Source: Flavobacteriales bacterium
GTDB lineage: Bacteria > Bacteroidota > Bacteroidia > Flavobacteriales_G > JALEGO01
Reading direction: 5' to 3'
Assembly (NCBI GenBank): GCA_020629755.1
Contig: JAHDCS010000014.1
Span: forward strand, 1-46,386
DNA length: 46,386 nt
Shown: in pieces, positions 8,422-24,015 of the stretch
How the letters are laid out: each line of letters opens with the position of its first letter
Numbering within the stretch: position 1 is the first letter of the stretch
Position numbers and translations under genes: made by a program
Notes under the pieces: generated by a model
The model's database searches: none
Seen by the model: the letters and a program-made list of their open reading frames with translations, nothing else
What the model was told of the DNA's origin: nothing

Positions 8422-9145
8422 GTGCTATGGTTGTGAGAACACTTGCAAAAGGGATAAGTGTTGGAGCTTTTTTATCAAGTTTTTTACCTTTTGAAGAAGG
8501 GATGTGTATCACATCACCGTGCTTGAGTAAAAGATTGGTTTTTTGAATTTGATCGGCTCGATTCAAATTCAGTTGATAGGTTTTGTTGTCTCTAATCAAA
8601 AGCACAGATTTTGTATTGGCATAAAAGTTTGTGCCTCCTGCTTTCGCTATATATTCCAGAAGGCGATTCTCTTGTTTTTCAATGGGGTAATTCCCCGGAT
8701 CTCTAACCTCACCTAAAATACTCACCGAGTGGTTCAGAATTTTAAGATCTATGATGGGATTTTGAATATGTTTTTTATAGTGTTCACTTAGTTTTTGTTC
8801 AGCTTCAGAAATGCTGAGCCCTTCAATTTTTATGTTTCCGATCATTGGTAAGCTCACCGTTCCTTCGCTGTTGATCATTTCCCATTTGCCATAGACTTCA
8901 TTAGAATTGTAAATGCCGTAGATTGAACCAATGCTTAAATCATCGTGATTCCAAATACTTAGGCTAATTTTATCATCGGCTTTTAGCTTATATGTGCTTT
9001 GAGGTGTCATTTGGTCTATAGATTGTACTTGATCTCTTTGTTTGTCAAGCATATAGGTTGAGCGACAAGACCCTAAAAATGCCATACAAGCTATGCCGAT
9101 GAATATTATGTGTTGTTTTTTCACTGGTTTAGTGGTTAACAACAA
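8396..9145 (-). CDS. Wza-like polysaccharide export lipoprotein (SLBB)
   Basis: This 249-residue protein has a signal peptide ending in the lipobox LGSC (Cys about 27), so it is probably anchored to the outer membrane. The poly-export domain follows (about 50-130: YKLKADDKISLSIWNHDDL, then GTVSLPMIGNIKIEGLS). An SLBB domain comes next (about 135-220: VSILGEVRDPGNYPI and LLEYIAKAGGT). A C-terminal hydrophobic helix (about 228-246) recalls the membrane-spanning helix of Wza. It is predicted to form the export channel with the Wzc-like partner encoded immediately downstream. The start overlaps the upstream receiver gene by 17 bp. Confidence 0.9.
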   Translation of the reverse strand: MLLTTKPVKKQHIIFIGIACMAFLGSCRSTYMLDKQRDQVQSIDQMTPQSTYKLKADDKISLSIWNHDDLSIGSIYGIYNSNEVYGKWEMINSEGTVSLPMIGNIKIEGLSISEAEQKLSEHYKKHIQNPIIDLKILNHSVSILGEVRDPGNYPIEKQENRLLEYIAKAGGTNFYANTKSVLLIRDNKTYQLNLNRADQIQKTNLLLKHGDVIHIPSSKGKKLDKKAPTLIPFASVLTTIALVFSLFKN

Positions 9146-9614
9146 GTTGAATTAAAAATAGGGCTACAACTGCAATAGCAGCAAGCGCCCACTTGCGCTT
9201 TTTGATCATGGTTTCTTCTCTTTGAATGAAGGCATTGAGTTCCATGATTTTTCGAATCAAAAAATGAATGCGATCACTTGTTTTTTCATTTTTAGAGACA
9301 TAATCGTATGCTCCATATTTAAGACAGTTTACAGCAACCTTTACGTCGTCTTGACCTGAGAGTAAAATAACTTGAATATTCGGGTCGTAAGCCTTAATAC
9401 GTTTAAGAACATCTAGCCCGTTATGGTCGCCAAGGTTATAGTCTAGAAGTATAACTTTAGGTTGTTTGTAAAGATTTTTAAGTGCCTGTTTGCCATTGTT
9501 GAATACACAGATATTGCTATGTTCTTTTTGAATAAGTTGGCTCTTTAGAATTTCTGCATAAAACAGATCGTCTTCTATGATAAAAATCATTGGTTTTTTT
9601 GCATTTGTTTTCAT
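9129..9614 (-). CDS. Receiver-domain protein with C-terminal membrane helix (REC-TM)
   Basis: A complete response-regulator receiver fills residues about 8-125: acidic pair IIEDD, phospho-acceptor Asp in VILLDYNLGD (about residue 57), LLSG for the Thr/Ser position and the conserved Lys in YDYVSKNE. It has no DNA-binding or enzymatic output. A basic linker (KKRK) instead leads to one hydrophobic helix, WALAAIAVVALFLIQLVV (about 142-159), at the very C-terminus. The receiver would therefore be tethered to the cytoplasmic face of the membrane. The gene overlaps the Wza-like gene, suggesting that phosphorylation tunes the EPS machinery directly, which is inference. A paralogue with the same layout is at 15425-15904. 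Confidence 0.85.
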   Translation of the reverse strand: MKTNAKKPMIFIIEDDLFYAEILKSQLIQKEHSNICVFNNGKQALKNLYKQPKVILLDYNLGDHNGLDVLKRIKAYDPNIQVILLSGQDDVKVAVNCLKYGAYDYVSKNEKTSDRIHFLIRKIMELNAFIQREETMIKKRKWALAAIAVVALFLIQLVVNH

Positions 9615-9638
9615 GATATTGATTTTAAGGGTATTAAA

Positions 9639-10031
9639 TTAAGCAGCAAGTTGTTTGATAATCGAGTTGATGTGATCGGCAGCGTAATGATCTTTTAAAA
9701 TGTACCGCATAGAGCGAAATGTATGATAACTCTCCATAAGCGTTTCGTTGTGCTCGCCTGTAATAAAAACCACTTTTTTTCTGGCCGTGTTTTTATCGAC
9801 ATATTCTAAAAAGTGATGGCCTGAAATATTGTGTTTATTTTCTAAGTCCAGATAAAAATCAAGCAAGATTAAATCTGGATTTTCACCGATGTGTTCTAAG
9901 CAATCCTCTGCACAAGAAAAAACTTGTGTTGAGATGTGTTTATGTCTGCCTAAAAGTTCTTTTAAATATGCTCTGTAAAACGGATCGTCTTCTACAATAA
10001 ACACTTTTTTTTGATTTGGGGTTGTTTTCAT
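9639..10031 (-). CDS. Single-domain response regulator (CheY-like)
   Basis: I place the start at ATG 10031 (MKTTPNQKK), giving about 130 residues, because the 17 residues of the longer frame add a hydrophobic stretch unlike a receiver start. The receiver signature is complete: VEDD, phospho-acceptor Asp in PDLILLDFYLD, VVFITGEH with the conserved Thr, and Lys in YILKDHYA. There is no output domain, so it may pass phosphate to the HPt protein (11584-11931) or act by protein contact. It sits between the sigma-54 activator and the REC-TM gene, after a 168-bp gap that contains a long palindrome and a TTCTC-N5-GAGAA dyad, so it may have its own regulation. Confidence 0.82.
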   Translation of the reverse strand: MKTTPNQKKVFIVEDDPFYRAYLKELLGRHKHISTQVFSCAEDCLEHIGENPDLILLDFYLDLENKHNISGHHFLEYVDKNTARKKVVFITGEHNETLMESYHTFRSMRYILKDHYAADHINSIIKQLAA

Positions 10032-10117
10032 AATTCCTTTTGCTATAAGAATGACGAAAAACGATCCAAAAACATAAAGCACTTATAGTCAATTGGTTAA
10101 TTTTTTTCCGATGTCAC

Positions 10118-10144
10118 GAAAATTCTCTTTTAAAGAGAGTTTTC
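10118..10144. promoter_or_regulatory. 27-bp near-perfect palindrome between regulator genes
   Basis: The arms GAAAATTCTCTTT and AAAGAGAGTTTTC are 13 bases each around one central base and differ from perfect symmetry at one pair. It is too compact and AT-rich for a normal intrinsic terminator and fits an operator or an RNA-processing hairpin. It lies downstream of the sigma-54 activator stop and upstream of the receiver gene. Confidence 0.45.
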
Positions 10145-10156
10145 TCAAATCGAGAA
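10142..10156 (+). promoter_or_regulatory. TTCTC-N5-GAGAA dyad, site 1
   Basis: TTCTCAAATCGAGAA has inverted 5-bp arms spaced by five bases. It shares TTCTCAAA..GAGA with sites at 18329-18343 and 20742-20756. It is a candidate binding site for a regulator, possibly the sigma-54 activator encoded just upstream. Confidence 0.4.
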
Positions 10157-10199
10157 GATTATTGAAAATAAGATAGAGTCAAAGTGTGTGCAAGCATAG

Positions 10200-11558
10200 C
10201 TACACCTCTTTGTTCTGAATCATGCGGTAAAGGGTAGATTTGCCAACATCTAAAATGTCTGCCACTTTACTGATATCTCTAGGATATTTATCAAGATAGT
10301 GCCTTATAATTTGTGCATTATATGCTTTTAGGCTCATTTGTGTTTTTAAAAGTCCATCAAGTGTGTTTGCAGATTTAAAGATAATGTCTGAAGCACTAAT
10401 CTGATCGCCTTCACTCATCACATGAGCCAACTCAATGACAGATTTTAATTCTCTGATATTCCCAGCAAAAGGATGACTTAAGAGTTTCTTTTTTGCATCC
10501 TCACCTAAATGCTTTGCTTTAAGTTTGTTTTCTTTGGCAAAGTGCTCAATAAAATGATCGGCGAGTAAAAACAAGTCTGTTTTTCGTTCTCTTAAGGGTG
10601 GATTGTGTATGGGGAGCCCCATTATTCTGTAATAAAGATCTTCTCTAAAAGAGCCATTTTCAACCAATTCTGATAAGTCTTTATGTGTCGCAACGATTAA
10701 GCGTGTATTTATCTTAATAGGAGAAGTGCCACCGACCCGTGTGATTTCTCTTTCTTGAAGTACGCGTAAGAGTAGCACTTGGGCAGACGCCGGAAGCTCG
10801 GCAATTTCATCTAAAAAAATTGTGCCATTCTGTGCTTGTTCAAATTTGCCAATATGCCTTTGGTGGGCACCTGTAAAAGCCCCTTTTTCATGGCCAAATA
10901 ATTCACTTTCTATTAAGTTTTCTGCAATTGCAGCAATATTTACGGCAATAAACTTGCCTTTTTGAAAGCCAGAATTGTAGTGAATACATTTGGCAACAAG
11001 TTCTTTTCCACTCCCTGTTTCTCCTGAAATGGACACATTAATGTTTGTTTTAACGGCTTTGTCCATTAATCGAAACACATCTTTAATAGCAGGCGAATTG
11101 CCTATAATGGTGTTTTGGTAATCGTATTTTTCTTTTACTTCAGCAGAGAGCACCTCTACCTTTTCTTTTAGAGCTCTGTTTTTTGATAGATTAATCAGTG
11201 ACTTCCAAAGTCTATCAGTGGTATCTTGGTCTTTTACAATGTAATCGTAGACCTCTTCTTTTTTAATAAGATCTAATGCTTTTTTGATGTCTTCGTTTGA
11301 AGAGATAAATATAATGGGCGTATTAGGCGCTTGTTTTTGGATGTCATTACAAAGCACATCTCCTTTGTAGTCAGGCAATGAAAGATCTAAGCAAATAACA
11401 TCTGGCTTTAGATTTAATGCTTCTAAACAGGCTTTGCCTTTGCTAAACGTATGGAGCTCATACGACGGATTTAAAGCCAAATGATGTGTTAGTAGCTTAG
11501 CGTAAAACGGGTCGTCTTCTACTAAAAAAATACGTAAATGATTCATCTGTTGAGCCAT
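10200..11558 (-). CDS. Sigma-54-dependent response regulator (NtrC family)
   Basis: This 452-residue regulator has three domains. The receiver spans about 8-125, with phospho-acceptor Asp58 in VICLDLSLPD and Lys109. The AAA+ domain spans about 149-375, with Walker A GETGSGKE (179-186), GAFTGA (226-231) for contact with sigma-54, and Walker B TIFLDE (246-251). A Fis-type helix-turn-helix ends the protein (DISKVADILDVGKSTLYRM). All catalytic motifs are intact, so it should activate -24/-12 promoters when phosphorylated. Likely partners are the hybrid kinase and HPt encoded immediately upstream in the operon. Possible targets are the sigma-54-like elements in 20640-20851. Confidence 0.93.
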   Translation of the reverse strand: MAQQMNHLRIFLVEDDPFYAKLLTHHLALNPSYELHTFSKGKACLEALNLKPDVICLDLSLPDYKGDVLCNDIQKQAPNTPIIFISSNEDIKKALDLIKKEEVYDYIVKDQDTTDRLWKSLINLSKNRALKEKVEVLSAEVKEKYDYQNTIIGNSPAIKDVFRLMDKAVKTNINVSISGETGSGKELVAKCIHYNSGFQKGKFIAVNIAAIAENLIESELFGHEKGAFTGAHQRHIGKFEQAQNGTIFLDEIAELPASAQVLLLRVLQEREITRVGGTSPIKINTRLIVATHKDLSELVENGSFREDLYYRIMGLPIHNPPLRERKTDLFLLADHFIEHFAKENKLKAKHLGEDAKKKLLSHPFAGNIRELKSVIELAHVMSEGDQISASDIIFKSANTLDGLLKTQMSLKAYNAQIIRHYLDKYPRDISKVADILDVGKSTLYRMIQNKEV

Positions 11559-11583
11559 ATCAGGTGGCTTACGGGAAAAAGCA

Positions 11584-11931
11584 TTACATAGTTTCTATTT
11601 CTTTTTTTAGCCCGTCAATTAGACCGTCAAAACTATTGATTAATTTAGGTACAAGCGTATTTAAAACCTCTTGGCTTTCTGGGTTGGGCATTTGATTAGC
11701 GTGTTTTTCAATCTCTACGATTTCATCTTTAAGCTCATTAATATCAAGTATAGCGAAAGAAGGTTTTATTTTATGTGCCGCTGATTTTACATTTGGCCAA
11801 TCTTGACTTTGAAAGCTGTTTTTGATGGTGTCTACAGATGAGGGCGTTTCATCAATAAATAATTGAATCATTTTCTTAACAAAATCAGTGTTTCCTGCAG
11901 CTGTTTTTTTGAGGTTTTCTAGGTTAAACAT
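11584..11931 (-). CDS. HPt-domain phosphotransfer protein
   Basis: This 115-residue, all-helical protein carries the HPt signature AAHKIKPSFAILDI, with the phospho-accepting His at about residue 52. It probably shuttles phosphate from the C-terminal receiver of the hybrid kinase encoded 10 bp upstream to the stand-alone receivers and the sigma-54 activator of this cluster. It lacks any other domain or membrane segment. Its size matches single HPt proteins. Confidence 0.88.
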   Translation of the reverse strand: MFNLENLKKTAAGNTDFVKKMIQLFIDETPSSVDTIKNSFQSQDWPNVKSAAHKIKPSFAILDINELKDEIVEIEKHANQMPNPESQEVLNTLVPKLINSFDGLIDGLKKEIETM

Positions 11932-11941
11932 AGCTTGGTGT

Positions 11942-14311
11942 TTAAAGGTTTAATAGGGTTATAATCTTATTGATTAAGTCTTTTTCTTCAAAGGGTTTAG
12001 ATAAATAATCGCTCATGCCAGCATCCAGACATTTTTGATCATCCCCCCGAATAGCATTTGCAGTTAAAGCAAGAATTGGCCAATCTAACTTAAGATCTTG
12101 TCTGATTTTTTTGCTTGCAGTAAGCCCATCCATTACAGGCATTTGCATATCCATTAGTATCAAATCATAAGTATTTTTTTGTGCCATTTCCAGCGCGATT
12201 TGACCATTGTCAGCAATGTCGATTTTAAGCTTGTATTTTTCTAAAATGCTAGAGGCATAAAATTGATTGATTTTATTGTCTTCGACCAGTAAAATACGTT
12301 TGTTGATTAATAACGCTTCTTGTGTTTTGTTTTTTTGGGGGGATTTAAGATCAAGGCTTAGGGGAATTTCTTCTTTTTGAAATTCAAGTTCTACATAAAA
12401 ATCAGACCCTTTATTTAGAGTGCTTTCTACCCAAATTTTACCGCCTTGTAACGTGGTGAGTTGTTTGGTAATGGTTAATCCTAAACCAGTTCCGCCATAT
12501 TTTCTAGTGGTACCATCTTCTGCCTGAGAAAAACTCTTAAAGATGTGGTCTAGTTTTTCTTTTTCAATACCAATGCCGCTATCAGAGACTTTAAACTGTA
12601 AGGTTACATTATTGTGTGTTTCTCTAAGAGGTACAATAGACAGTATGATGTTTCCTTTTTTTGTAAACTTAATGGCATTGCTTAAAAGGTTAATTAAAAT
12701 CTGGTTTAATCGTGTTGGGTCACCAATGATGTTAAAGTCCTTTAAAGAGGCATCAATCTGAGCGTATAGTGCCACATCTTTTTCACTTACTTTGTATTGC
12801 AAGGAGTCAATAAGGGTATTGGCTAAGGTATTGATGTTGAAAGATGCCGATTCAAAGGTCATTTTTCCGGACTCTATTTTTGAAAAATCTAATATATCAT
12901 TGATAATCACCAACAAGTTTTCTCCAGATTGCTGAATGGTATTTAAGTATTTTTTTTGTTTTTCACTTAAAGGGTCGTCTTCTAAGAGTTTACTCATCCC
13001 TAAAATAGCATTCATAGGAGTTCTAATCTCATGACTCATATTGGCTAAAAAGATCTCTTTTGAATGCATAGATTCTTCAGCGATATTTTTGGCTTTCAGT
13101 AATTCTAATTCTGTGGCTTTAAGTTTTGTAACATCAATACCATATCCAATGACCATTTGTAAATGCCCTTTCAGATCAAAAACAGGAGAAAGACGCCTAA
13201 TGTGGTATTCAATCTCGCCTTTTTGATTGATGACTTTTTCTTCCCACTCATATTGTTTCTGAGTGTTTTTGGCGTTATTAAATTTTTCTCTGCGTTGTTC
13301 GGCAATTTTAATAGGCTTGTTCTTTTCTTTAACATAATCAAAGTCTGTTTTTCCAATAAGCCATTGCCTGATTTCTTGATTTTTAACCGCTACGGGGTTA
13401 ATAAACGTGTACCGATGCTGATGATCAAAAGCCACTACATCTGTGGGTAGGCTGTTTAAGATATTTTCATAAAAAACTTTTTGTTTATCAATTGTCGCAG
13501 TGGCCTGTTTTATGGATGTGATGTCTTTGCCGTAAATATTTACATAGCCATACTCTTTAATGGGGGTAAAAGAGAGCGCATAATCAGTGCCTTTAGCATT
13601 TACCTCAAGATCAAGTACTTTTTGTTCTTGTAAAACACGATCGACAATCTCTTTTAAGGGTGTGTCAAAAAGATTTTTTTCATTAATAGCGAGTTCATCT
13701 AATAAAGGTTTGCTTGCGTCATTAAAAAAAAGAATATTGCCTTGTTTAGAAATTCTGAATACCGGATTGGGGTTTTGCTTCGGGAATTTTGAGACTGAGT
13801 CAATGCGTTCGATTTGTTTTTTAGAAAGTTCATAGAGTAAACACGCTTTTAAAGAAACACCAAATTTTTCAATTACAGAAGAGAGTTTATTGAGTTCAAT
13901 AGAGCTAAAGCGGCTTTCTTTCTGTGAGTATATGACCATAAAACCAATGTCAGAAAGCTTAAATATGGCATAATCGCCTTTGGTTTCTTTACACACTTCA
14001 GGGTATTGGTTTTCTTTGAGATCTACATTGATAAACCGTTCTTTTTGAAGGTGATGGATTAACGTATAGTTTGATTTTAGCTGTTCTACATGTGTTTTAA
14101 TTTTAATAGGATATTCGTATTGTATAGAATAATGATCAGAAGCGTAAGGGTCTACAGAGCCATTACTGGTATAAATGGCAGCATGTTGGTAATTTTTTCT
14201 AGAGAGTAAAATTTTAACAAAGCCTTCGGCTGCTTTTTTAAACTCTAGTGAGCTTCCAATACTTAAAGAAAGCTCATAGAGTAAGGATATTTCAGAAATA
14301 ATATCGTTCAT
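11942..14311 (-). CDS. Hybrid histidine kinase (GAF-PAS-PAS-HisKA-HATPase-REC)
   Basis: This 789-residue kinase has no membrane segment, so it appears cytoplasmic. It has an N-terminal GAF-like region (about 15-160) and two PAS domains (about 175-275 and 285-405). HisKA follows with phospho-His427 in ANMSHEIRTPMN. The ATPase domain (about 535-655) has the N box NLLSNAIKFTKKG, DSGIGIEKEKL and GGTGLGLTI. A C-terminal receiver carries Asp721 in LILMDMQMPVMDG. It starts 2 bp after the FIST gene ends and precedes the HPt gene, the usual order for a His-Asp-His-Asp relay. A FIST partner for a soluble kinase fits known FIST-kinase pairing. Confidence 0.93.
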   Translation of the reverse strand: MNDIISEISLLYELSLSIGSSLEFKKAAEGFVKILLSRKNYQHAAIYTSNGSVDPYASDHYSIQYEYPIKIKTHVEQLKSNYTLIHHLQKERFINVDLKENQYPEVCKETKGDYAIFKLSDIGFMVIYSQKESRFSSIELNKLSSVIEKFGVSLKACLLYELSKKQIERIDSVSKFPKQNPNPVFRISKQGNILFFNDASKPLLDELAINEKNLFDTPLKEIVDRVLQEQKVLDLEVNAKGTDYALSFTPIKEYGYVNIYGKDITSIKQATATIDKQKVFYENILNSLPTDVVAFDHQHRYTFINPVAVKNQEIRQWLIGKTDFDYVKEKNKPIKIAEQRREKFNNAKNTQKQYEWEEKVINQKGEIEYHIRRLSPVFDLKGHLQMVIGYGIDVTKLKATELELLKAKNIAEESMHSKEIFLANMSHEIRTPMNAILGMSKLLEDDPLSEKQKKYLNTIQQSGENLLVIINDILDFSKIESGKMTFESASFNINTLANTLIDSLQYKVSEKDVALYAQIDASLKDFNIIGDPTRLNQILINLLSNAIKFTKKGNIILSIVPLRETHNNVTLQFKVSDSGIGIEKEKLDHIFKSFSQAEDGTTRKYGGTGLGLTITKQLTTLQGGKIWVESTLNKGSDFYVELEFQKEEIPLSLDLKSPQKNKTQEALLINKRILLVEDNKINQFYASSILEKYKLKIDIADNGQIALEMAQKNTYDLILMDMQMPVMDGLTASKKIRQDLKLDWPILALTANAIRGDDQKCLDAGMSDYLSKPFEEKDLINKIITLLNL

Positions 14312-14312
14312 C

Positions 14313-15413
14313 TTATAAAATGCCTACCACAATTGTTTTGTTGAAAAACTCAAGCTTACCACCATCGCCAAATGAAGAGATTTCTCCTAGGGTTAAAACC
14401 CCATTTGGTATAATGTGGTCTAAGTTTTTTTCTTTGAGTTCTTCAAGCACAACACCTAGTTCATCTTTAAAATCATCCCCTAAAAAAAGTACCCTTGAAA
14501 TACAATCAAAAATAAGGCAGTGGTTAACGTTTTTATTTCTTTTGGATAGACCTTGAATAGCGGCTTGTCTAGCAGCATCAACAAGTGTTTTTTTATTGCC
14601 TTTTAGTATGGTAAGTACAGAATTTTTTGGCACTGCACCAATACATATCAAAGACTGATTTTCGCGCAATAAGGGGTCTCTGACGACAAATTCTTCGTAG
14701 TCTTTTTTGATTCCAAAAGGATACGCTTTAGCTAAATCAAAGAAATTATTTTGGGTAAAGGTTTTGCCTGAATCTTCTTCGACAACTTCTTTATAAACAT
14801 CAAAAGCACTGACCCAATTAAGTCCATGAATAGTGTTTTTCTCAGTTTCAGTTGCAACAAATGGTCCTTTGAGTTCTTCCCATCCGTGCTTTACGCCAGA
14901 TGAACTTTTAGTAGGAATAACAAAAAGAATGGCGGCATCTTGCACAAGCCCTTGAGGGGTAAATACACAAGGTTTTTGTACAAAGTCTAAATAGCCAGCG
15001 CCTCCTCCAATATAGGTGCATGAGTCGCTGTATGTATTGTATAATTCATCTAAAAAATGTGCAATATGAGCACTTAGCCCATCAAGTAAGCATAAAAGTG
15101 TACTGTTTTTGTCTTTAAAATTTAGTGTGGGTAGTTTTATGCTCCCCTCTTTCATTTGTACCACTATGGGGTTGTTAGGGCTGGTTATTTTTTCGATGGT
15201 TAATCCTTTGTCACTGTGTTCGCCTTTATAAATCACAGAAGGGTAAACCCCGCCATAAAACCGAAGGTTTTTTTTGTTTAATTCGTCAATGAGTTTTGGG
15301 ATGTCGATGGTGTTTTTCTCGCCAATAAAAAACTGAAGAACATCATCTTTTGATGGAGAAAGTTTTTCAATTTGGGCTAAAACTTCAGGGATAGATCGGG
15401 TGTGGATATTCAT
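14313..15413 (-). CDS. FIST-domain sensor protein
   Basis: This 366-residue soluble protein matches the FIST N/C pair: an N-terminal half with YIGGGAGYLDF and LVQDAAILFVI (about 130-190) and a C-terminal half with YPFGIKK, FVVRDPLL and CLIFDCISRVLFLG (about 225-315). FIST domains are thought to bind small ligands, perhaps amino acids, and often work with histidine kinases. Here the next gene, 1 bp away, is the hybrid kinase. The protein has no output domain, so it probably modulates the kinase. The ligand cannot be predicted. Confidence 0.85.
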   Translation of the reverse strand: MNIHTRSIPEVLAQIEKLSPSKDDVLQFFIGEKNTIDIPKLIDELNKKNLRFYGGVYPSVIYKGEHSDKGLTIEKITSPNNPIVVQMKEGSIKLPTLNFKDKNSTLLCLLDGLSAHIAHFLDELYNTYSDSCTYIGGGAGYLDFVQKPCVFTPQGLVQDAAILFVIPTKSSSGVKHGWEELKGPFVATETEKNTIHGLNWVSAFDVYKEVVEEDSGKTFTQNNFFDLAKAYPFGIKKDYEEFVVRDPLLRENQSLICIGAVPKNSVLTILKGNKKTLVDAARQAAIQGLSKRNKNVNHCLIFDCISRVLFLGDDFKDELGVVLEELKEKNLDHIIPNGVLTLGEISSFGDGGKLEFFNKTIVVGIL

Positions 15414-15424
15414 AATATACTAGG

Positions 15425-15904
15425 TTAAAAAATAAAAAATAAAAATGATAAAAGGGCTACGCAAAAGACCAATAGGTTCATTAAATCTGCTTTGATGTTT
15501 TGTTTGTGATGATTAATGTTATGTTTTTGTGTTTTGAGGGTTAAAATTTTTTCTATGCTTTTTTCTAGTTTAAAAAGCACGTTTTCATCTTTTACAATAT
15601 AGTCATATGCACCTTGCTTAAGTAGTTTAACAGCGATGTCTATTTTTCGTTGTCCAGAAAGTATGAGCGTAGGAAAACGCTTGGTTCTTTTAAGAAAAAA
15701 ATCACCATTTTTGCTTTCGCCCAAATGGTAGTCTAAAATTACCACATCTGGGTTTTGATGAAGCGCTTTAAGTAAATCATGGCCCTGTGTGAAGTACTGT
15801 ACATTCCAGTTGTTATGTTCTGAAAAATGAAAGGCTAAAAGCTCTCGAACCACTTTGTTGTCGTCTAAAATAAAAATAAGGGGTTTATGCTTAGTTGTGT
15901 TCAT
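15425..15904 (-). CDS. Receiver-domain protein with C-terminal membrane helix (REC-TM), second copy
   Basis: This 159-residue protein repeats the layout of the one at 9129-9614. The receiver (about 9-125) has ILDDN, phospho-acceptor Asp in DVVILDYHLG (about 56), TLILSG and Lys in YDYIVKDE. A basic, His-rich linker (KTQKHNINHHKQN) leads to a final hydrophobic helix, LMNLLVFCVALLSFLFFIF (about 141-159). It lies between the WecA/TagO-like transferase gene, which it overlaps by 14 bp, and the FIST gene. One copy is thus coupled to the initiating enzyme and the other to the exporter, consistent with (but not proving) control at both ends of the pathway. Confidence 0.85.
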   Translation of the reverse strand: MNTTKHKPLIFILDDNKVVRELLAFHFSEHNNWNVQYFTQGHDLLKALHQNPDVVILDYHLGESKNGDFFLKRTKRFPTLILSGQRKIDIAVKLLKQGAYDYIVKDENVLFKLEKSIEKILTLKTQKHNINHHKQNIKADLMNLLVFCVALLSFLFFIF

Positions 15905-17012
15905 AACGTTTGATAAAGGTGTTGTGTAACATGAGTTGTTTTTTTGAGTAGTATGCTTTTTTCAGTAGAGCATAATTCTTTTTAATCTTTAAAACATTGA
16001 GTAATTCATGCAGAAAAAAACCACCAAAAAACAAGACGATACAAGTTAGGTGCGCAGCTAAATTTGAGAAAGAGAGTGTGGTAGCCATCAATAGTAATAT
16101 AAAGTGCGAACTTAAAATAGAGAGGGCTGCAGTCTGGTGATTAAATCCGAGTTTTAACAAAAGGTGATGAATGTGGCTTTTGTCGGCTGAAAAGGGCGAT
16201 TTCTTTTGCATTATTCTTTTGATAAAAACACGAAGCGTATCCCATGTTGGGATAAAAATAAGCGCAAATACTAAAGGGATTACGATTGGGTGTTCTGCGG
16301 TTGTGCTGAGAAGTTCAAGCACTCCGCTTCCAAATATAAATCCAAGAGGCAAGGCGCCGGTATCTCCCATAAAAAGTTTGGCTTTTTTCCAATTAAAGGG
16401 GAGGTACCCTGTTAATGCAAAAGCTAAAAAGAGAAAAAATAAAGCGTATGACATCCCCCCCAAAAACATAAAACTAATGGCAAATAGCATGCTGTTTAAT
16501 AGTGCCATCCCGCCTGCTAGACCATTAATGCCATCAATTAAATTAAACGCGTTAATAAAACCTACTAGAAAAAAGAGGTGTATGAGAAATGAGAGCGCAT
16601 AAGGTAATGGATAACCGGTAAGAGGAATGGTGTTAAAAAGGCATTCTGGATGGGTGCCTAGCCATGCTAAGGCCAGTAAGGTCTGGATGCCTAGTTTTTT
16701 TAATGAAGAGAGGTTTTTTAAATCGTCAAGATAACCAAGTAGGCAGAATCCTAAAATACACATAAGCCAAATAGGCGATAGCGTTGTGAATGGGAGAAAA
16801 CAAATAGCAGCCACACTTACCGGAAGAATAAAAGCAAGTCCACCGCCTGCGGCCGTTGGTGTTATATGTGAAGACCGCTCATTAGGCTTTGAGACAAGCC
16901 CTAGTGCAGCAGCCTTAGTGATTAAGGTTAAACATAAGTGCTTAGCGCTAAATATTACAGCCACGCAAACAGCGGCAATGAGCAAGATTATGATGTAACT
17001 AGAAGAGATCAT
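15891..17012 (-). CDS. WecA/TagO/MraY-type undecaprenyl-phosphate sugar-1-phosphate transferase
   Basis: This 373-residue protein with about eleven helices is predicted to start EPS repeat-unit synthesis by moving a sugar-1-phosphate (often GlcNAc-1-P) from its UDP donor to undecaprenyl phosphate. Family motifs are present: TPTAAGGGLAF near residue 50, the Asp pair in GYLDDLKNL (about 93-94), the catalytic NAFNLIDGINGLAGG (about 155-169) and FMGDTGALPLGF (about 214-225). A cytoplasmic DKSHIHHLL (about 279-287) fits the His-rich loop of WecA-type enzymes. It is the only initiating transferase in the cluster. The GGGGGGGAT run at 16453 encodes FLGGMS. Confidence 0.92.
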   Translation of the reverse strand: MISSSYIIILLIAAVCVAVIFSAKHLCLTLITKAAALGLVSKPNERSSHITPTAAGGGLAFILPVSVAAICFLPFTTLSPIWLMCILGFCLLGYLDDLKNLSSLKKLGIQTLLALAWLGTHPECLFNTIPLTGYPLPYALSFLIHLFFLVGFINAFNLIDGINGLAGGMALLNSMLFAISFMFLGGMSYALFFLFLAFALTGYLPFNWKKAKLFMGDTGALPLGFIFGSGVLELLSTTAEHPIVIPLVFALIFIPTWDTLRVFIKRIMQKKSPFSADKSHIHHLLLKLGFNHQTAALSILSSHFILLLMATTLSFSNLAAHLTCIVLFFGGFFLHELLNVLKIKKNYALLKKAYYSKKQLMLHNTFIKRYEHN

Positions 17013-18241
17013 CTGTTTTCGTAAAATTTTTGGTTATACATTAGGTGTGCAAGATGTTTTTGAACATGTGATTTAGGTAAGTATTCTAAGGTTTTACTTT
17101 GTATGTTTTGTTTGGCATATCCCTTTTCAAGACTTTTAAAAATTTGAAGATATGACTGGGCAATATGCTTCCAGGTATATCTCTCTTCTGCAATTTTGTA
17201 GAGTTCTAAGCGCATTTTTTTAAGCGTATTTTCTGAGGTGTGGGTGCTTAAAACACTCAAGTCTGATACGTTTTTAAAATAAAGGGCCTTGTGCTGAGTG
17301 GTTTCTTTGTTGTAGGATACATTGAATGCAAAAACAGGAAGTTTTAAGTACATGGCTTCAACTAAAGATGGGTTGGTGCCTCCGGCGCTGTGGCCATGCA
17401 CGTATACTTTGGCGTTTGCTCTTAAAACATTGAGTTCTTTTTGTGCATAGATTGGGTCTAAAAGGTGTAGGTTAGGGTAGAGTGTGCTTTGGTATTGTTC
17501 CTTAAGTGCACGGCCATAGGGCGAATGATTCCAGTTGCCTACAAATACAAGTCTTTGCTTAGTTTGCGCGTACGCTTTTAAAATAAGATGGATGTTATTC
17601 TCAGGCTCTATTCTGCAGACTGAAAAGGCGTAGTCTTTAAATAAAAAAGGATAGGTTTGGTAATCTTTTGGCGTACATGTGGGATGACTCACATGATCGG
17701 CCCCGTAAGCCACTAAGTAACTTAAGGTTTTGTAATAGATGGCCGTATATTTTTTTAAAGCCGCATTGTCTGTAATATCAATGTGTGAGTATTTAACGGC
17801 CAAATATTCAGAAAATTTAAGATACTTTTTAACCCATCTGTTCCATTTGGGTCTTCGCCATTCAAGACCATCGATATGTACAATCATTTTTTTTGACGAA
17901 AAAAGACGCACAAACGGCATAATAATCCCCCCAGATACACCTAGTATGAGTAGATAATCGGCATAAAAAAGAGCGTGAATAATCGAAAGCACATCATAAA
18001 ATATACTTGAAAGCCCATTGGCTGATAAAGGCAAATAATAACATCTTGCGCCTTTATAGTAGCGTTTGCGCTCTGATTTAGTATACAATTTAGAAGATCC
18101 GTACACCGAAAGGTCTATCTTTTTTGAAAGTCTACGGACCAGATGTTCGGCCAGTGTTTCAAACCCACCGTACCTGGCAGGTACTCCGGCTGTTCCGATG
18201 ATGGCTATTTTCTTTTTTCTTTTCATTTTATTAAAAAGCAT
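17009..18241 (-). CDS. Glycosyltransferase with DUF1972 N-terminus (rhamnosyltransferase-like)
   Basis: The 410-residue protein opens with the DUF1972 signature GTAGVPARYGGFETLAEHL (about 16-34), seen in rhamnosyltransferase-like GT4 enzymes. A GT4 C-terminal half follows (CRIEPENNIHLILKAY, then HGHSAGGTNPSLVEAMYL with the conserved Glu). It is probably a cytoplasmic transferase acting early on the lipid-linked acceptor. Start alternatives are ATG 18241 or the internal Met at residue 6 (MKRKKK); both keep the domain. It overlaps the WecA-like gene by 4 bp. The sugar it transfers is not determined by sequence. Confidence 0.87.
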   Translation of the reverse strand: MLFNKMKRKKKIAIIGTAGVPARYGGFETLAEHLVRRLSKKIDLSVYGSSKLYTKSERKRYYKGARCYYLPLSANGLSSIFYDVLSIIHALFYADYLLILGVSGGIIMPFVRLFSSKKMIVHIDGLEWRRPKWNRWVKKYLKFSEYLAVKYSHIDITDNAALKKYTAIYYKTLSYLVAYGADHVSHPTCTPKDYQTYPFLFKDYAFSVCRIEPENNIHLILKAYAQTKQRLVFVGNWNHSPYGRALKEQYQSTLYPNLHLLDPIYAQKELNVLRANAKVYVHGHSAGGTNPSLVEAMYLKLPVFAFNVSYNKETTQHKALYFKNVSDLSVLSTHTSENTLKKMRLELYKIAEERYTWKHIAQSYLQIFKSLEKGYAKQNIQSKTLEYLPKSHVQKHLAHLMYNQKFYENR

Positions 18242-18247
18242 GAATAA

Positions 18248-19408
18248 TCATGCCGTTTTCATAACTATTTCATTTTCAGTTAGTTTTGGTTTTAAAGAGT
18301 CTTTGTTTGTCTTGTTTTTAGACAGAGATTCTCTTTTTGAGAATAATGATGTTATTGTTTGTTGCATTTGACTCTGGAACACGGAGCTGCTGAATAGGGT
18401 GCTGTGCGCATAGGCTCGACGGCTTAAGTCATCGTAGAGGGTTTTGTTACAGGCTAAGTGTTTAATGGTTTGACTTAGTGTATTTATATGTTTTGGGTGG
18501 ATGTGATAGCCAACGCTTTTGTTTGGGCTAATTTCAGCAATACCTCCTACAGGAGGTACAATTACGGGTGTGCCGTATGCCATCGCTTCAAGTGCAGTAA
18601 GGCCAAAGGTTTCTATCCAGGCACTAGGCAAGGATAAGTTTACAACCAAATTGGCTTGTTTGTAAAAGCGGTGTACGTCTTTTTGTTTGGGGTAAATCTT
18701 TAGATTTTTAACCGCCCTATATTGGGCTTTAAATGCTGCGATTTTTTGTGTATCTGCATTTAAAACTAAATGAAAGGTGATGTTTTTAAGACTCTTGGCT
18801 ACACGTACAAACTGGTAGATGCCTTTGTAAGGTTTAAAAGAACAGAGCATAAGTACATTAAAGGAGGCGTTTGTTTGTGTCTTTGATTTTTGAGATTGAG
18901 CAATAAAATGATCATCTAAAGCATTGTATATTCTAGAAAAAGGCTTCAGATGAGCATAGTGGTTTTGCACGTAATCAGATACAAAAATAAAATGAGAGGC
19001 TGTCTTTTTAGCCATATAGACCAGGGTCGATTTTAAGGCAGAATGCAAAGACACCTCATGGATGTGGTAGAGTACCTTAGCGCCTTTTAGTTTGCCTGCC
19101 AGTGCAGCAGAAAAAGGCAAAAGGGTATTGATGTAAATAAGGTCTGTTTTTTGGGCATGTTTGATCAAAAACCAAAATAAGTAGGCTTGTGCCTTTAAAA
19201 AATAGAATAGCGTTATGATTTTATACTTACTGTAAGTATATGGGATGGTTTGTTTGTGTGGCAAGTCTGATAAAAAACCTTCAGAGTTAGAACATAAGAC
19301 GGTATTCTTTCCAGGATAAGACTGCGCGACTTGCCGAAGTATTTTAGGGCTACCGCTGTAGTCGTTTAACAGGTGAACAAAATAGGTGTGATTAGGCAGA
19401 TTGGGCAT
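18248..19408 (-). CDS. Glycosyltransferase, GT4 family
   Basis: This 386-residue GT-B enzyme has an N-terminal half with VLYHIHEVSLHSALKS (about 115-130) and a C-terminal half with MLCSFKPYKGIYQFVRVAKS (about 184-203). The donor-site block ETFGLTALEAMAYGTPVIVP (about 266-285) contains the Glu-x7-Glu pattern. The last 35 residues are a basic, Ser/Lys-rich tail (SKRESLSKNKTNKDS) outside the fold. The DNA encoding that tail holds a perfect TTCTC-N5-GAGAA dyad at 18329-18343. The gene overlaps the first gene of the operon by 17 bp. Confidence 0.87.
   Translation of the reverse strand: MPNLPNHTYFVHLLNDYSGSPKILRQVAQSYPGKNTVLCSNSEGFLSDLPHKQTIPYTYSKYKIITLFYFLKAQAYLFWFLIKHAQKTDLIYINTLLPFSAALAGKLKGAKVLYHIHEVSLHSALKSTLVYMAKKTASHFIFVSDYVQNHYAHLKPFSRIYNALDDHFIAQSQKSKTQTNASFNVLMLCSFKPYKGIYQFVRVAKSLKNITFHLVLNADTQKIAAFKAQYRAVKNLKIYPKQKDVHRFYKQANLVVNLSLPSAWIETFGLTALEAMAYGTPVIVPPVGGIAEISPNKSVGYHIHPKHINTLSQTIKHLACNKTLYDDLSRRAYAHSTLFSSSVFQSQMQQTITSLFSKRESLSKNKTNKDSLKPKLTENEIVMKTA
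18329..18343 (-). promoter_or_regulatory. TTCTC-N5-GAGAA dyad, site 2
   Basis: Read on the minus strand it is TTCTCAAAAAGAGAA; the symmetry extends one base further on each side (18328-18344). It lies in the 3' end of a glycosyltransferase gene and matches the dyads at 10142-10156 and 20742-20756. Its role is unknown. Confidence 0.35.
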
Positions 19409-20639
19409 ATAGATTATAATAATGGGTGATGTGATTGGCTTTTCTTTGCCAGGTAAAATAATTAAGGTGTCTTGCTTTAGCGCCTTTGCTGAGTTCTTTT
19501 AGTTGTTTTGGTTCTTTGAAGAGTAGAGCTAACTTGCTAGAGAAAGCGTTAATTGCGTTTTGGTAGTTGGGGTAATACGGAATTTTATAACCACACCCCT
19601 CTGTAATGAACTCGCCTGGTCCACAGCCATCAAAGCAAAGTACGGGTAATCCCGCAGAAAGGGCTTCTGAAACAACCATTCCGGCACCTTCATGCGAAGG
19701 AAATAAAAACACAGAGGCTTGTGTGTATAGCGCCATAAGTTCAGAACGCTCTATCCAGTCTATGAATACTACCTTGTGCTTAATACCCAGGCTGTGGGCT
19801 TTTTGTTCGAACGTATTTTTTAATGGGCCTTTGCCCACTAAGGTGAGCTGAACCTTTTGTTGGTTATGTCGGTCTAATTGATGGTAAAACAAAGCAAAGC
19901 TTTCTAGTGTCACATCAAAACCCTTAAGTGGCACAAAGCGGCCTACAGAAAGAATGTTAAATGTTTTTTTGGGGGGATGTTGATTCGATGACGGATAAGG
20001 CGCTGAGCCTACTGAGGGCAGTAAAGAGGTTTTTGGTGTTGCGCGTCTGTTTTCAATTTTGCTTTGCGCTTTTGAGTGCATGCAAAAGATATGTTGCGTC
20101 TTTTTTCTGGATAGATATACCAAAGGATCGATGTTCCAAAACCATAGTTTTAACATGTAATTTAAGCGGTTTTTTAAATAGCTTATTAGACCATAGTGTG
20201 TTAGCAAATAGGGTTTTGGGATTTTAGGATGGTGACCAACGGGCCCCCAGAAGGTTGGTTTTTTAAATACCCACAATAGAGTGGGGGCCCAATCGGTATG
20301 AAAATTAAGGTTGTGGGCAATATCAAATTTGAGATTTCTTTTAATTACAAACAAAGGCAAAAAGCATTGCCATAAATAAAAATAGAGCATAGCTCCTCTC
20401 GATTTTTTTTTCCAAAAACGCATCCAGTACGGAAGATCGTAATACAAAAAACAGATATTTTTATAATGAATACTTGGGTGTTGTGATTGATACCTTTCAA
20501 TGGCTTCTTGGTTGTTTTTTCTTGTGATGGCAATCACCTTATGTTGATGTGCTAGATGAATGATCATTTGCCATCCCATTCCGTCTTCAGATCCTTTGTA
20601 AGGATTTATAGCATAAGCGCTTGCAAGAATTGTTTTCAT
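19392..20639 (-). CDS. Glycosyltransferase, GT4 family, first gene of the EPS operon
   Basis: The 415-residue enzyme begins ILASAYAINPYKGSEDGMGW (about 4-23), an N-terminal pattern found in a GT4 subgroup of EPS clusters. GPVGHHPKIPK lies near residues 132-142. The C-terminal half has ILSVGRFVPLKGFDVTLESF (about 229-248) and SHEGAGMVVSEALSAGLPVLCF (about 312-333) with both donor-site Glu residues. As the first gene of an 18-kb run it should lie next to the main promoter. The sigma-54-like element at 20651-20666 would, however, place the transcript start right at the ATG, leaving no leader. Confidence 0.87.
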   Translation of the reverse strand: MKTILASAYAINPYKGSEDGMGWQMIIHLAHQHKVIAITRKNNQEAIERYQSQHPSIHYKNICFLYYDLPYWMRFWKKKSRGAMLYFYLWQCFLPLFVIKRNLKFDIAHNLNFHTDWAPTLLWVFKKPTFWGPVGHHPKIPKPYLLTHYGLISYLKNRLNYMLKLWFWNIDPLVYLSRKKTQHIFCMHSKAQSKIENRRATPKTSLLPSVGSAPYPSSNQHPPKKTFNILSVGRFVPLKGFDVTLESFALFYHQLDRHNQQKVQLTLVGKGPLKNTFEQKAHSLGIKHKVVFIDWIERSELMALYTQASVFLFPSHEGAGMVVSEALSAGLPVLCFDGCGPGEFITEGCGYKIPYYPNYQNAINAFSSKLALLFKEPKQLKELSKGAKARHLNYFTWQRKANHITHYYNLYAQSA

Positions 20640-20851: not shown

Positions 20852-23320
20852 ATGTCTACATCCTTTTTGCAAGAAGATTGCCAATTGATCAAAGAAATAG
20901 TATCGCCTTTAGATGACACCCTAGAAATAACATCCCCAAAAATCCCCCCAAAACAAACACATATTACCCCCTTTTATTACACACAAAATAGAGATAAAAG
21001 CATCCGTTTCTTATTCAAGACCACCAACATATATCCTGGGTTTTTAGACATGTATAACAATAGCTCTATACGCGCCAAACTTTATAAATGTATGGTGCGA
21101 TTGGTTTTTCTCATCCCCATTTTAAAACGGCTTGTATTTAAAACATTGTATGTGCATAGTTCTGAGCCACTTAGTCTGTTTGAAGACAAAACACTAAAAG
21201 CCTATCAAAAAAGTATTTTTTTAGGAACGAAAGGCAAGGAGCGTAACATCTTGGTAGCACTCTCTACACACAACGGGGTCAAGACGTTTTTAAAACACCC
21301 ATTACGTAACCCTAATTCGAATAAAGCGTGGCGGGTGTCTAATTATTTGACCTGTCTTCAAATCAAAGGGCTAAGCGTTCCAGATATAGAAAAAATAGCC
21401 CAGGGTCATTTACAAGAAAACATTCGCCCCGATTCGCCAGAAAAAAACGACCAAATAAGCACCCAACACCTTCGGGTTTATAAAGCGCTTTTTTCAAAAA
21501 CAAGATCATTGTTTGATCTTCAAATTTTCTCAGAAAAAACAACTCGAAAACTTCAAAAGATCGACAAGTCTACCCCGCATTTTAATGTGCCATTTTTAAC
21601 ACATTTATTAAGCGAAAATCTAGCAGAGATAGATCTGTCTAAAAAGACCTATGCTTGTTTTAAGCACGGTGATTTTACGCCTTGGAATTCGTATCTCTCC
21701 AAATCAAGTTTATGTATGTTTGATTTTGAACATGCAGAGTTTAAGGGCAGTTATTTTTATGATGTATTTCATTTTATAATGCAATCAGAAGTATTGCTTG
21801 GGCAGCGTAATTTTAAAGACATCCTCCCAAAACTAAAAGAAGCGTTTCACAATAAGCGTTTACCTAAAAAAATAAAACCTGGTACATTCTCACATTATTT
21901 TAGACTCTATATATTGGATTGTGCCAGCCAGTTTTTGGTACATTATTCACAAAGTGAAAAACTTCATAAACAGGCCTTTGATCTAATCAATGTTTGGCAA
22001 CAAGCATTATTGTGGCTCATGCCAAAGCCTAAAACAAGAACACAGGCGATTACTCTGTTTTTTTCTTTTTTATCTGATAAACAATATGCTTTGATTAAGC
22101 ATCCCTATAACACCGTTCAAGAGATTCCTCAGACTTCTGATTTAGACTTAATTTTAGATGCTACACAAACTAAAACGAGTATTGGGTTTTTTAAAACGCT
22201 TTTTGGTAAACAGGCTGTTAAGATAAGAGGCAAAAGCTTTATGACCACTTTGCACATAGAGACGTCTGACCTCTCATTGGCTATTGATTGTATCCATAAC
22301 CCTGTAAGAAAATCTTTAGCATTTTTTACCTCTCAACAGCTCATTAAAAATCGCAAGAAAACACAGGCTATTTATAGGCTGAACTCAACCTATGAAGTGG
22401 CTTATATGTTCTTTTTTTATTTTTTGAATAAATCTGCCATCCCTCTAAAATATCGGTCATATGTTTTAGGCATATCGCCTGAAAAAAAAGACGAGATTTT
22501 ACGTTTTATAAACCTTAGATTACATGTTAATCTTCATAATCTAGAACAGTTATTCGTCTTTGATATAAAGCTGTACTTTCAATTAAAAATAGGGCTTAAA
22601 AAACAAGCCGAAAATCATCTGATCAAAAGAGCCAAATACGCTCTGTTGTATCTAATAGATGTACTCTTTATGTCTAAAGATAAAGGCTATGTAGTCACCT
22701 TTAGTGGGGTAGATGGAGCTGGAAAATCAACCTTAATTGAGCACACACGTCACCTTTTAGAAACCAGACATAGAAAGCGCGTGAAAGTACTTAGGCATCG
22801 CCCGAGTATTTTACCTATTCTAAGTGCGTTTAAATACGGGAAATCCAAAGCAGAGCAAAGGGCCAGTCAACGTTTGCCAAGATTAGGTAAAAACCAATCT
22901 AAGCTAAGTTCACTCTTGCGTTTTTCATACTATTTTTTAGATTATTTCTTTGGGCAATGGCTCATTAAATTCTTATACACTTGGCAAGGGTATGTGGTGG
23001 TATACGATCGGTATTATTACGATTTCATCTCTGATCCAAAGCGGAGTAACCTTTTGTCTTTTCCTAAATTGACCTATTATTTGTTCAAATGGGTAGATAA
23101 GCCAAAAGTAAATCTGTTTTTGTATGCGCCGGCACATGTGATTTTACAACGTAAAAAAGAGTTAGACGCCCAAAGCATTGGGCTGTTAACACATCGTTAC
23201 AAACAACTCTTCACACGTTTGCAAAAACAATATGATTCGAAATCATTTGTGAGCATCGAAAATATAGATTTACAACACACATTACATCAAATCGGACGGT
23301 TAATTTCTAAAGTAGCCTAG
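20852..23320 (+). CDS. Three-domain protein: APH-like kinase, nucleotidyltransferase-like, thymidylate-kinase-like
   Basis: This 822-residue protein joins three nucleotide-handling modules. Residues about 110-390 resemble aminoglycoside/choline phosphotransferases, with the catalytic loop HGDFTPWN (about 271-278) and metal-binding FDFE (about 289-292). Residues about 415-560 have a nucleotidyltransferase-like SDLDLILD (about 429-436) and a later Asp in LAIDCIHN; the usual Gly before Ser is Thr. Residues about 610-820 are thymidylate-kinase-like, with P-loop GVDGAGKST (about 618-626) and DRYYYDFISDP. Facing the EPS operon, it may phosphorylate or activate a glycan precursor, which is inference. 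A true dTMP kinase role is unlikely given the fusion and its context. Confidence 0.75.
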   Translation: MSTSFLQEDCQLIKEIVSPLDDTLEITSPKIPPKQTHITPFYYTQNRDKSIRFLFKTTNIYPGFLDMYNNSSIRAKLYKCMVRLVFLIPILKRLVFKTLYVHSSEPLSLFEDKTLKAYQKSIFLGTKGKERNILVALSTHNGVKTFLKHPLRNPNSNKAWRVSNYLTCLQIKGLSVPDIEKIAQGHLQENIRPDSPEKNDQISTQHLRVYKALFSKTRSLFDLQIFSEKTTRKLQKIDKSTPHFNVPFLTHLLSENLAEIDLSKKTYACFKHGDFTPWNSYLSKSSLCMFDFEHAEFKGSYFYDVFHFIMQSEVLLGQRNFKDILPKLKEAFHNKRLPKKIKPGTFSHYFRLYILDCASQFLVHYSQSEKLHKQAFDLINVWQQALLWLMPKPKTRTQAITLFFSFLSDKQYALIKHPYNTVQEIPQTSDLDLILDATQTKTSIGFFKTLFGKQAVKIRGKSFMTTLHIETSDLSLAIDCIHNPVRKSLAFFTSQQLIKNRKKTQAIYRLNSTYEVAYMFFFYFLNKSAIPLKYRSYVLGISPEKKDEILRFINLRLHVNLHNLEQLFVFDIKLYFQLKIGLKKQAENHLIKRAKYALLYLIDVLFMSKDKGYVVTFSGVDGAGKSTLIEHTRHLLETRHRKRVKVLRHRPSILPILSAFKYGKSKAEQRASQRLPRLGKNQSKLSSLLRFSYYFLDYFFGQWLIKFLYTWQGYVVVYDRYYYDFISDPKRSNLLSFPKLTYYLFKWVDKPKVNLFLYAPAHVILQRKKELDAQSIGLLTHRYKQLFTRLQKQYDSKSFVSIENIDLQHTLHQIGRLISKVA

Positions 23321-23322
23321 TT

Positions 23323-24015
23323 ATGACAACAATATTGCAACAGATCATACGGTTTAGAAATCCACATTTTAGTTTTGATCGTTCTGTTAAGACAAGCTGG
23401 CTAGTGTCTCTTTTTTTAGAAAAAGCGTTCTGCTTGTTAAGGGGGATCAGCATGCTTTTTAGAGGAAAACGCCCAAAGTTTATTTCTTTAGCAAAAGGCG
23501 TAAAGGTCAAGTATATATCAAATATTTCGTGGGGCAAATGGGTGATGCTTCATTCTAATGTTTATTTGAGTGGTCTTGGGAAAGGCCAACTAAAACTTGG
23601 CAATAATGTAAGTATAGGCGCCTTTAGTCGGCTTATTATTTCGACGACCTTTAATCGTTTAGGGGCGTTCATTACAATAGGTGACAATGTAGGTATTGGT
23701 GAGTTTGCGTATTTGGGTGGAGCCGGAGGGCTAACCATTGAAGAAGACTGTATTATTGGGCAGTATTTTTCGTGTCATCCAGAAAATCATTGTTTTAGCG
23801 ATACAACTAAGCCCATTCGCTTGCAAGGCGTTACGCGCAAGGGCATTCATATTTCTAAAAACTGTTGGATTGGTGCAAAAGTAACTTTTCTAGATGGAGC
23901 TTTTCTTGGTGAAGGGTCAGTGGTGGCAGCCGGATCCGTTGTGCGTGGCAGCTTTCCGCCTGGATCTATAATCGGAGGCGTGCCTGCTCGGGTGTTAAAA
24001 AGAAGAGCATTTTAA
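23323..24015 (+). CDS. Left-handed beta-helix (hexapeptide) acyltransferase
   Basis: The 230-residue protein has an N-terminal region rich in basic residues, then hexapeptide repeats from about 85 to 215 (LKLGNNVSIGAF, ITIGDNVGIGEFAY, IHISKNCWIGAKVTFLDG). It ends with VVAAGSVV and IIGGVPARVLKRR, the typical WbbJ/Maa-type C-terminus. The catalytic His is probably in HPENHCF (about 157-163). It likely O-acetylates a sugar of the polysaccharide. It begins 2 bp after the three-domain protein, so the two are co-transcribed. Confidence 0.9.
   Translation: MTTILQQIIRFRNPHFSFDRSVKTSWLVSLFLEKAFCLLRGISMLFRGKRPKFISLAKGVKVKYISNISWGKWVMLHSNVYLSGLGKGQLKLGNNVSIGAFSRLIISTTFNRLGAFITIGDNVGIGEFAYLGGAGGLTIEEDCIIGQYFSCHPENHCFSDTTKPIRLQGVTRKGIHISKNCWIGAKVTFLDGAFLGEGSVVAAGSVVRGSFPPGSIIGGVPARVLKRRAF

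Follow-up and report, generated by a model that had tools for sequence, protein, structure and literature searches.

Three-domain fusions of an APH-like kinase, a nucleotidyltransferase-like domain and a thymidylate-kinase-fold domain in exopolysaccharide loci of Bacteroidota, with separate counterparts in other phyla

Several pathways combine a kinase, a nucleotidyltransferase and a P-loop kinase, among them those of methyl phosphoramidate and PAPS; APS kinase and the Campylobacter cytidine-diphosphoramidate kinase are nucleotide-phosphorylating enzymes suited for comparison with the last of these activities. The AmgK/MurU and Cj1415-Cj1418 pathways serve cell-surface glycan synthesis, and LicD and fukutin are glycan phosphotransferases of the Pol-beta fold. 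The protein analysed here joins an APH-like kinase domain (APH), a nucleotidyltransferase-like domain (NT) and a thymidylate-kinase-fold domain (KIN). It shares with AmgK/MurU and Cj1415-Cj1418 the logic of a kinase plus a nucleotidyltransferase (plus a P-loop kinase) and a probable place in cell-surface glycan synthesis, whereas in those pathways the nucleotidyltransferase is of another fold, the genes are separate, and no accessory genes were seen in common. Its locus resembles the Wzx/Wzy-dependent exopolysaccharide (EPS) loci with Wza-Wzc export in possessing an initiating phosphoglycosyltransferase, GT4 glycosyltransferases, Wzy-like, Wzc-like and Wza-like proteins, and a putative flippase; the kinase-NT-kinase fusion, however, is an addition for which such loci offer no described function. 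No description of the fusion was found in the open-access literature searched, which misses most subscription journals; thus, the way the domains are combined, how widely this occurs and how it stays together with shared glycosyltransferases appear to be new to that literature, whereas the domains and the type of locus are already known.

The window, i.e., the whole stretch of DNA analysed, comprises 46,386 nucleotides of a Flavobacteriales contig. A single ORF, free of internal stops, encodes the fusion, and the motifs quoted in an earlier, sequence-only reading of this DNA were all located in it, as listed below, where fractions refer to a family alignment of 78 sequences.

20852-23320, plus strand: APH / NT / thymidylate-kinase-fold fusion (822-residue ORF; model pLDDT 89.9; homologues)
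20969-22027, plus strand: APH/choline-kinase-like domain (residues 40-392, including the N-terminal R-W...FL.FY segment; Foldseek match to LicA, separate homologues)
21665-21688, plus strand: APH catalytic loop HGDFTPWN (272-279; D274 and N279 78/78, H272 76/78)
21719-21730, plus strand: APH metal-binding FDFE (290-293; D291 and E293 both 78/78)
22028-22669, plus strand: NT, predicted divergent Pol-beta-type nucleotidyltransferase-like domain with helical tail (393-606; model, Foldseek, hhalign)
22136-22150, plus strand: NT metal-binding motif SDLDL (D430, D432, 78/78), the start of SDLDLILD (from 429)
22286-22288, plus strand: third NT Asp, D479 (78/78; Asn in the decayed copy, G061)
22670-23317, plus strand: KIN, thymidylate-kinase-fold P-loop kinase domain (607-822; Foldseek matches 4nzy, 3hjn)
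22706-22732, plus strand: P-loop GVDGAGKST (619-627; K625 78/78)
22793-22804, plus strand: RHRP (648-651), at the putative position of TREP in dTMP kinase (H649, R650, P651 78/78; R648 77/78)
23006-23011, plus strand: DR of DRYYFDFI (D719, R720, 78/78)

Pfam recognised these motifs weakly, with Thymidylate_kin at 7e-5 (under its cut-off when the C-terminal part was searched alone), APH at 0.14, and no match at all in the middle region of the fusion; the identities of the modules were therefore settled by structure and family evidence. The AlphaFold model of the full fusion, for which the 78-sequence alignment was the input, had a mean pLDDT of 89.9 and a pTM of 0.83. In Foldseek searches of the PDB, the N-terminus matched the choline kinase LicA (4r77, E 1.8e-5) as well as ethanolamine kinase and other APH-fold kinases, all with probability 1.00, and PF01636 was matched by 12 of 16 relatives (best 2.5e-7). 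With the KIN matches described below and the family alignment, these results bear out the three module types named in the sequence-only reading, NT being consistent with Pol-beta. The same reading held that all three modules keep recognisable catalytic residues. Those of the quoted motifs (D274, N279 and D291; D430 and D432; K625) are indeed each present in 78/78 sequences, as are D479 of NT and D719 and R720 of KIN, and the statement is sound for NT and KIN. It needs a qualification for APH of the window, where the alpha-C Glu, found in 77 of the 78 sequences, is replaced by Val162 in this protein alone; the K, alpha-C E, HxDxxxxN and D set of the APH superfamily thus occurs across the family, with V for E in the window copy, whose own APH module would appear not to be wholly intact. 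In common with LicA and the APH kinases (PF01636), the fusion has the fold, the HGDxxxxN loop and the DWE/DFE motif; it differs from them in its N-terminal segment, its two further enzymes, the missing alpha-C Glu of the window copy, and the lack of recurrent choline genes nearby. Mean pairwise identity in the 78-sequence alignment was 54% for KIN as opposed to about 30% for APH and NT, a difference suggesting that the substrate of KIN is constant and that those of APH and NT vary more; by the same token, KIN might be the sole essential activity. An origin of the fusion in assembly artefact or frameshift was ruled out by the many independent full-length copies.

The middle domain, modelled alone, reached a pLDDT of 95.4. 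Foldseek with this domain alone found no match in the PDB at E<=0.001; the Pol-beta superfamily made up most of the top 50 matches (best 3nyb, E 7e-3), the list including Trf4, CCA-adding enzymes, PolX, TUTases, LinB, CD-NTase and SpoT. The check on the fold of this region thus gave a nucleotidyltransferase-consistent answer with weak statistics and no contradiction. The Asp triad (DxD...D) of the superfamily is present in 78/78, and the hG[GS] triphosphate loop is not found in the fusions, which have LKF instead, with SG or HG in some of the separate forms; fused and separate NT domains are matched by hhalign (probability 84.8, E 6.6e-6). None of the Pfam families fits NT in a set of 27 such domains: membership of NTP_transf_5 (PF14907) was rejected (hhalign probability 5.5; one of the 27 at E 0.074), and LicD (PF04991) had no match among the 27 in sequence-to-profile searches; among 41 sampled genomes, a single one had LicD. 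Compared with the Pol-beta nucleotidyltransferases, including PF14907 and PsmN, NT shares the S-D-x-D motif, the third Asp and a predicted palm-like fold, but has no significant Pfam match and carries LKF where the hGS loop is expected. Overall, the model and the alignment are consistent with a Pol-beta-like domain that has diverged, its Asp triad being intact and its triphosphate loop atypical.

The EPS genes of the window are as follows; cluster names (c1 etc.) are from the clustering of proteins encoded around 87 fusion genes.

23323-24015, plus strand: hexapeptide O-acetyltransferase c7 (Pfam Hexapep; start codon 2 bases past the fusion stop)
19392-20639, minus strand: GT4 glycosyltransferase c4 (Agrobacterium relative 28%, 6e-46; Streptomyces 29%, 3e-38)
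18248-19408, minus strand: GT4 glycosyltransferase c3 (Agrobacterium relative 33%, 3e-55)
17009-18241, minus strand: DUF1972 / Cps2T-like rhamnosyltransferase c1 (NCBIfam Cps2T 7e-58, under the equivalog cut-off; Agrobacterium 42%, 1e-103)
15891-17012, minus strand: WecA-like initiating phosphoglycosyltransferase c10
8396-9145, minus strand: Wza-like outer-membrane export protein c11 (Pfam Poly_export)
6112-8421, minus strand: Wzc-like co-polymerase c8 (Pfam GNVR, Wzz)
4892-6115, minus strand: probable Wzx flippase c9 (from conserved operon position; no Pfam match)
3792-4895, minus strand: GT4 glycosyltransferase c5
2567-3799, minus strand: O-antigen ligase/polymerase-like Wzy c6 (Pfam Wzy_C)

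The phosphoglycosyltransferase, glycosyltransferases, Wzy, Wzc and Wza that characterise Wzx/Wzy-dependent EPS loci thus co-occur in the window, with Wzx assigned by position. Across the 87 loci, the usual order runs from a receiver protein through Wza, Wzc, Wzx, GT4 c5 and Wzy-like c6 to the fusion, and from there through acetyltransferase c7, GT4 c4, GT4 c3 and DUF1972 glycosyltransferase c1 to WecA-like c10; the acetyltransferase is the next same-strand gene in 65 of them, and the sigma-54 regulator c13 and the histidine kinase c12 are often close to the operon. The window holds every typical cluster, with the order permuted: the block 2567-20639 lies on the minus strand, and the fusion and acetyltransferase are read divergently from it. 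The connection to EPS drawn in the sequence-only reading is therefore stronger than was proposed, the gene being normally within the operon, and the description of the fusion as facing an EPS operon gives way to that of a rearranged form of being inside one. In the Bacteroidota core, no sugar-nucleotide synthesis gene was recurrent in the 87 loci.

The fusion had also been taken for an unusual one, which it is not. While the full-length architecture was found in 15 of 99 sampled relatives, at 30-37% identity, a profile scan in which each species was represented by one genome returned at least 313 relatives, a lower bound because only the kinase domain supplied the scan patterns; the best 80 of the 313 were nearly all full-length fusions, from a wide range of Bacteroidota families and from one record with the label Limnohabitans. 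It is, in other words, a common Bacteroidota gene. A single-sequence scan of genome contigs detected none of these relatives. Copies on complete replicons include one on chromosome CP012155.1 (L103) and one on a Hymenobacter swuensis plasmid. The Limnohabitans record (L090, JASGCW010000037.1), a MAG assigned to Pseudomonadota, has a Flavobacterium-like EPS locus and groups with Flavobacterium, and its label probably reflects binning contamination.

A survey of fused versus separate homologues near EPS genes, proposed earlier, indeed found both forms, and both in EPS loci. Three Bacteroidota loci (L051, L102, L169) have an APH ORF and an NT-KIN ORF in place of one protein, and two others, from more distant Bacteroidota (L170, L171), have NT-KIN and APH genes that overlap or are adjacent. 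When the Agrobacterium NT-KIN and APH proteins were used as queries against 72,556 annotated plasmid records, each matched an identical set of six (E<=1e-6): four from Leisingera, one from Agrobacterium, and that of the fused Hymenobacter gene. The two proteins are separate in Leisingera and Agrobacterium, where they belong to one EPS cluster and are annotated as ‘phosphotransferase’ and ‘hypothetical protein’. In Legionella adelaidensis, the NT-KIN and APH genes overlap within a surface-polysaccharide locus. A Streptomyces plasmid has an APH (weak against the fusion profile, E 0.04), a lone 202-residue KIN and a 271-residue GDLD-motif protein in one locus, which also holds DUF1972, GT4s, a ligase and an acetyltransferase; its NT candidate, WP_327249814, has the motif only (hhalign probability 0.1). 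Glycosyltransferases related to c1, c3 or c4 occur in the Agrobacterium, Leisingera and Streptomyces loci as well, and c7 is 40% identical over 221 residues (E 4e-53) to the acetyltransferase of the Streptomyces EPS locus, so that the companion genes are related across phyla, beyond mere likeness of kind. The module thus keeps company with the same EPS genes in at least three bacterial phyla, and the sequence comparisons show one uncharacterised EPS module that is fused in Bacteroidota and encoded elsewhere by separate genes (APH; NT-KIN or KIN alone).

One copy of the fusion (G061) is shorter, having lost the P-loop and most of KIN and having Asn for the third NT Asp, with APH intact, and its locus is without c6, c7 and c1; such decay of NT and KIN alongside the EPS locus is as expected if NT and KIN need one another and also need the EPS locus. 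In the kinase tree, all Bacteroidota forms close to the fusions share one side of a branch with 100/99 support, the backbone being without resolution, and the tree does not separate an ancestral from a secondary status of the split Saprospiraceae forms. The pairing across families of Flavobacterium sp. SUN052 with Fibrivirga, and of Brumimicrobium with Cyclobacteriaceae, suggests transfer of the locus.

As KIN has the fold, P-loop and DR motif of thymidylate kinase, and as Foldseek matched the C-terminus to dTMP kinases (best 4nzy, E 1e-5, probability 1.00), the domain could in principle be the dTMP kinase of the cell, all the more since no protein of the window's genome exceeds the TIGR00041 cut-off. 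The one TIGR00041/PF02223 match of that genome (L115; 30 bits against a Pfam cut-off of 27) looks, by its sequence, more like a deoxynucleoside kinase than Tmk. It is to be noted that most Tmk-type matches across the relatives look like deoxynucleoside kinases, and that Bacteroides ihuae was the only control genome absent from the TIGR00041 matches listed. The fusion itself scored 20.5 against the curated TIGR00041 cut-off of 83.25 bits, and KIN differs from dTMP kinase (PF02223, TIGR00041) in falling under the curated cut-offs, in having RHRP for TREPGGT and another substrate region, and in being found only in EPS loci. Of 100 relatives, 17 carry the fusion and only 3 have a Tmk over the TIGR00041 cut-off, from which it follows that dTMP kinase activity must have another source; as most of the Tmk-negative relatives also have no fusion, the fusion cannot be a general substitute for Tmk. 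The check on this point, which found about 17% of relatives with the fusion and about 97% without an over-cut-off Tmk, whether or not they carry the fusion, makes it very unlikely, to the point of being scarcely credible, that the P-loop domain is the dTMP kinase of the cell.

Considering the gene order and the occurrence of the parts as separate genes in other phyla, the fusion is very probably an enzyme of the EPS pathway. The best explanation overall, to which we give about an even chance, is an enzyme of three domains that works in the cytosol and serves a single family of Wzx/Wzy-type exopolysaccharides. In this enzyme, APH would phosphorylate a sugar or small alcohol, kinases of choline, ethanolamine and sugars being its closest folds; NT, by means of its Asp triad, would add a nucleotidyl or phospho group to the APH product or remove one from it; and KIN would act in the same reaction by phosphorylating an intermediate that is nucleotide-like or a sugar phosphate, with the fusion channelling the intermediate between domains. 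The resulting phosphate-containing precursor or substituent would be placed on the repeat made by the WecA-like and GT4 enzymes, before flipping and polymerisation. The presence of KIN in Streptomyces without a clearly demonstrable NT counts against this explanation, as do the weak fold statistics and atypical triphosphate region of NT, the lower conservation of APH and NT relative to KIN, and the missing alpha-C Glu of the window copy. That the fusion makes or attaches a phosphate-containing moiety of the repeat unit, as the enzyme classes imply, is in itself about a balanced proposition, and any stated order of the catalytic steps is doubtful, the kinase-then-nucleotidyltransferase scheme of the sequence-only reading being a possible one; no result pointed to the lipid head group that this reading also offered as a product. 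More tentatively, the module may embody an undescribed chemistry of three steps (a kinase, the transfer of a nucleotidyl or phosphoryl group, and another kinase) leading to a new phosphorylated or nucleotide-activated donor or substituent for a widespread EPS family of several phyla.

Among the more specific alternatives, a phosphotransferase that decorates the glycan is unlikely, though it is the least so: APH would phosphorylate a small alcohol, NT would pass the phospho-group on to a hydroxyl group on the lipid-linked repeat, and KIN would recycle the NMP set free. LicA, a choline kinase, is the top fold match of APH, and LicD and fukutin supply a precedent for such transfer by Pol-beta folds; however, NT did not match LicD and barely matched NTP_transf_5, no CTP:phosphocholine-type cytidylyltransferase is among the conserved genes of the 87 loci, and we know of no dedicated domain for NMP recycling. 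In a somewhat less probable scheme, APH makes X-P, NT makes NDP-X and KIN phosphorylates the nucleotide, giving an activated donor for a conserved glycosyltransferase; the resemblance of the set to the methyl phosphoramidate and PAPS pathways and the lack of a recurrent sugar-nucleotide gene speak for it, but Pol-beta-fold enzymes usually attack with hydroxyls rather than phosphates, so that NDP-X is not an obvious product, and the nearest fold of KIN is dTMP kinase, not APS kinase. As most EPS are made without a module of this kind, it is also conceivable that it regulates or recycles energy, and the regulators c2, c12 and c13 recur beside the operon. Nonetheless, a regulator or scaffold whose kinase and nucleotidyltransferase domains modify Wzc or response regulators to control EPS output is improbable, given that the glycosyltransferase and acetyltransferase companions persist across phyla in which the regulators differ, and that two kinases of small-molecule type retain their catalytic sites. 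The decorating scheme has a further precedent in PsmN, a lasso-peptide enzyme annotated as a nucleotidyltransferase, which adds hexose to phosphoserine (PMC9266682), an example of the unforeseen modifications of phosphorylated groups of which proteins resembling nucleotidyltransferases are capable.

The dedicated EPS enzyme would bring orphan ‘hypothetical protein’ and ‘phosphotransferase’ genes in EPS loci of several phyla together as one testable module, its fused form offering a single protein for purification and assay at once. If the building block is phosphorylated or nucleotide-linked, this would reveal an EPS step that structure models based on counting glycosyltransferases miss, in a common polymer of Bacteroidota. 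Mutants of F. collinsii and F. johnsoniae in wza/wzz-like genes have altered spreading and glycans (PMC9950754), and these may or may not concern the same locus as the fusion.

Several further features were seen in these loci. In the window, the ORFs at 9129-9614 and 15425-15904 (minus strand) are stand-alone receivers whose C-terminal tail is hydrophobic, suggestive of membrane anchoring; receivers of this cluster (c2) are found in 65 of the 87 loci, beside wza or wecA. The EPS operon is interrupted midway by 9639-15413 (minus strand), an insertion between its two halves that encodes a sigma-54 activator, an Hpt protein, a large hybrid histidine kinase, a FIST-like protein and a further receiver. 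An ORF resembling an IS1595/ISXO2-type transposase (636-1544, plus strand) lies near the rearranged operon. In three Flavobacteriales loci (L026, L027, L054) an ORF of about 2,170-2,310 residues lies directly upstream of the fusion, in two of the three between it and the Wzy-like gene. Lastly, in 12 loci (L024-L027 and others) a 788-residue protein (c14) takes the place of separate c4 and c3, and its N-terminal half is 43-46% identical to c4, indicating that the EPS module also undergoes glycosyltransferase fusion.
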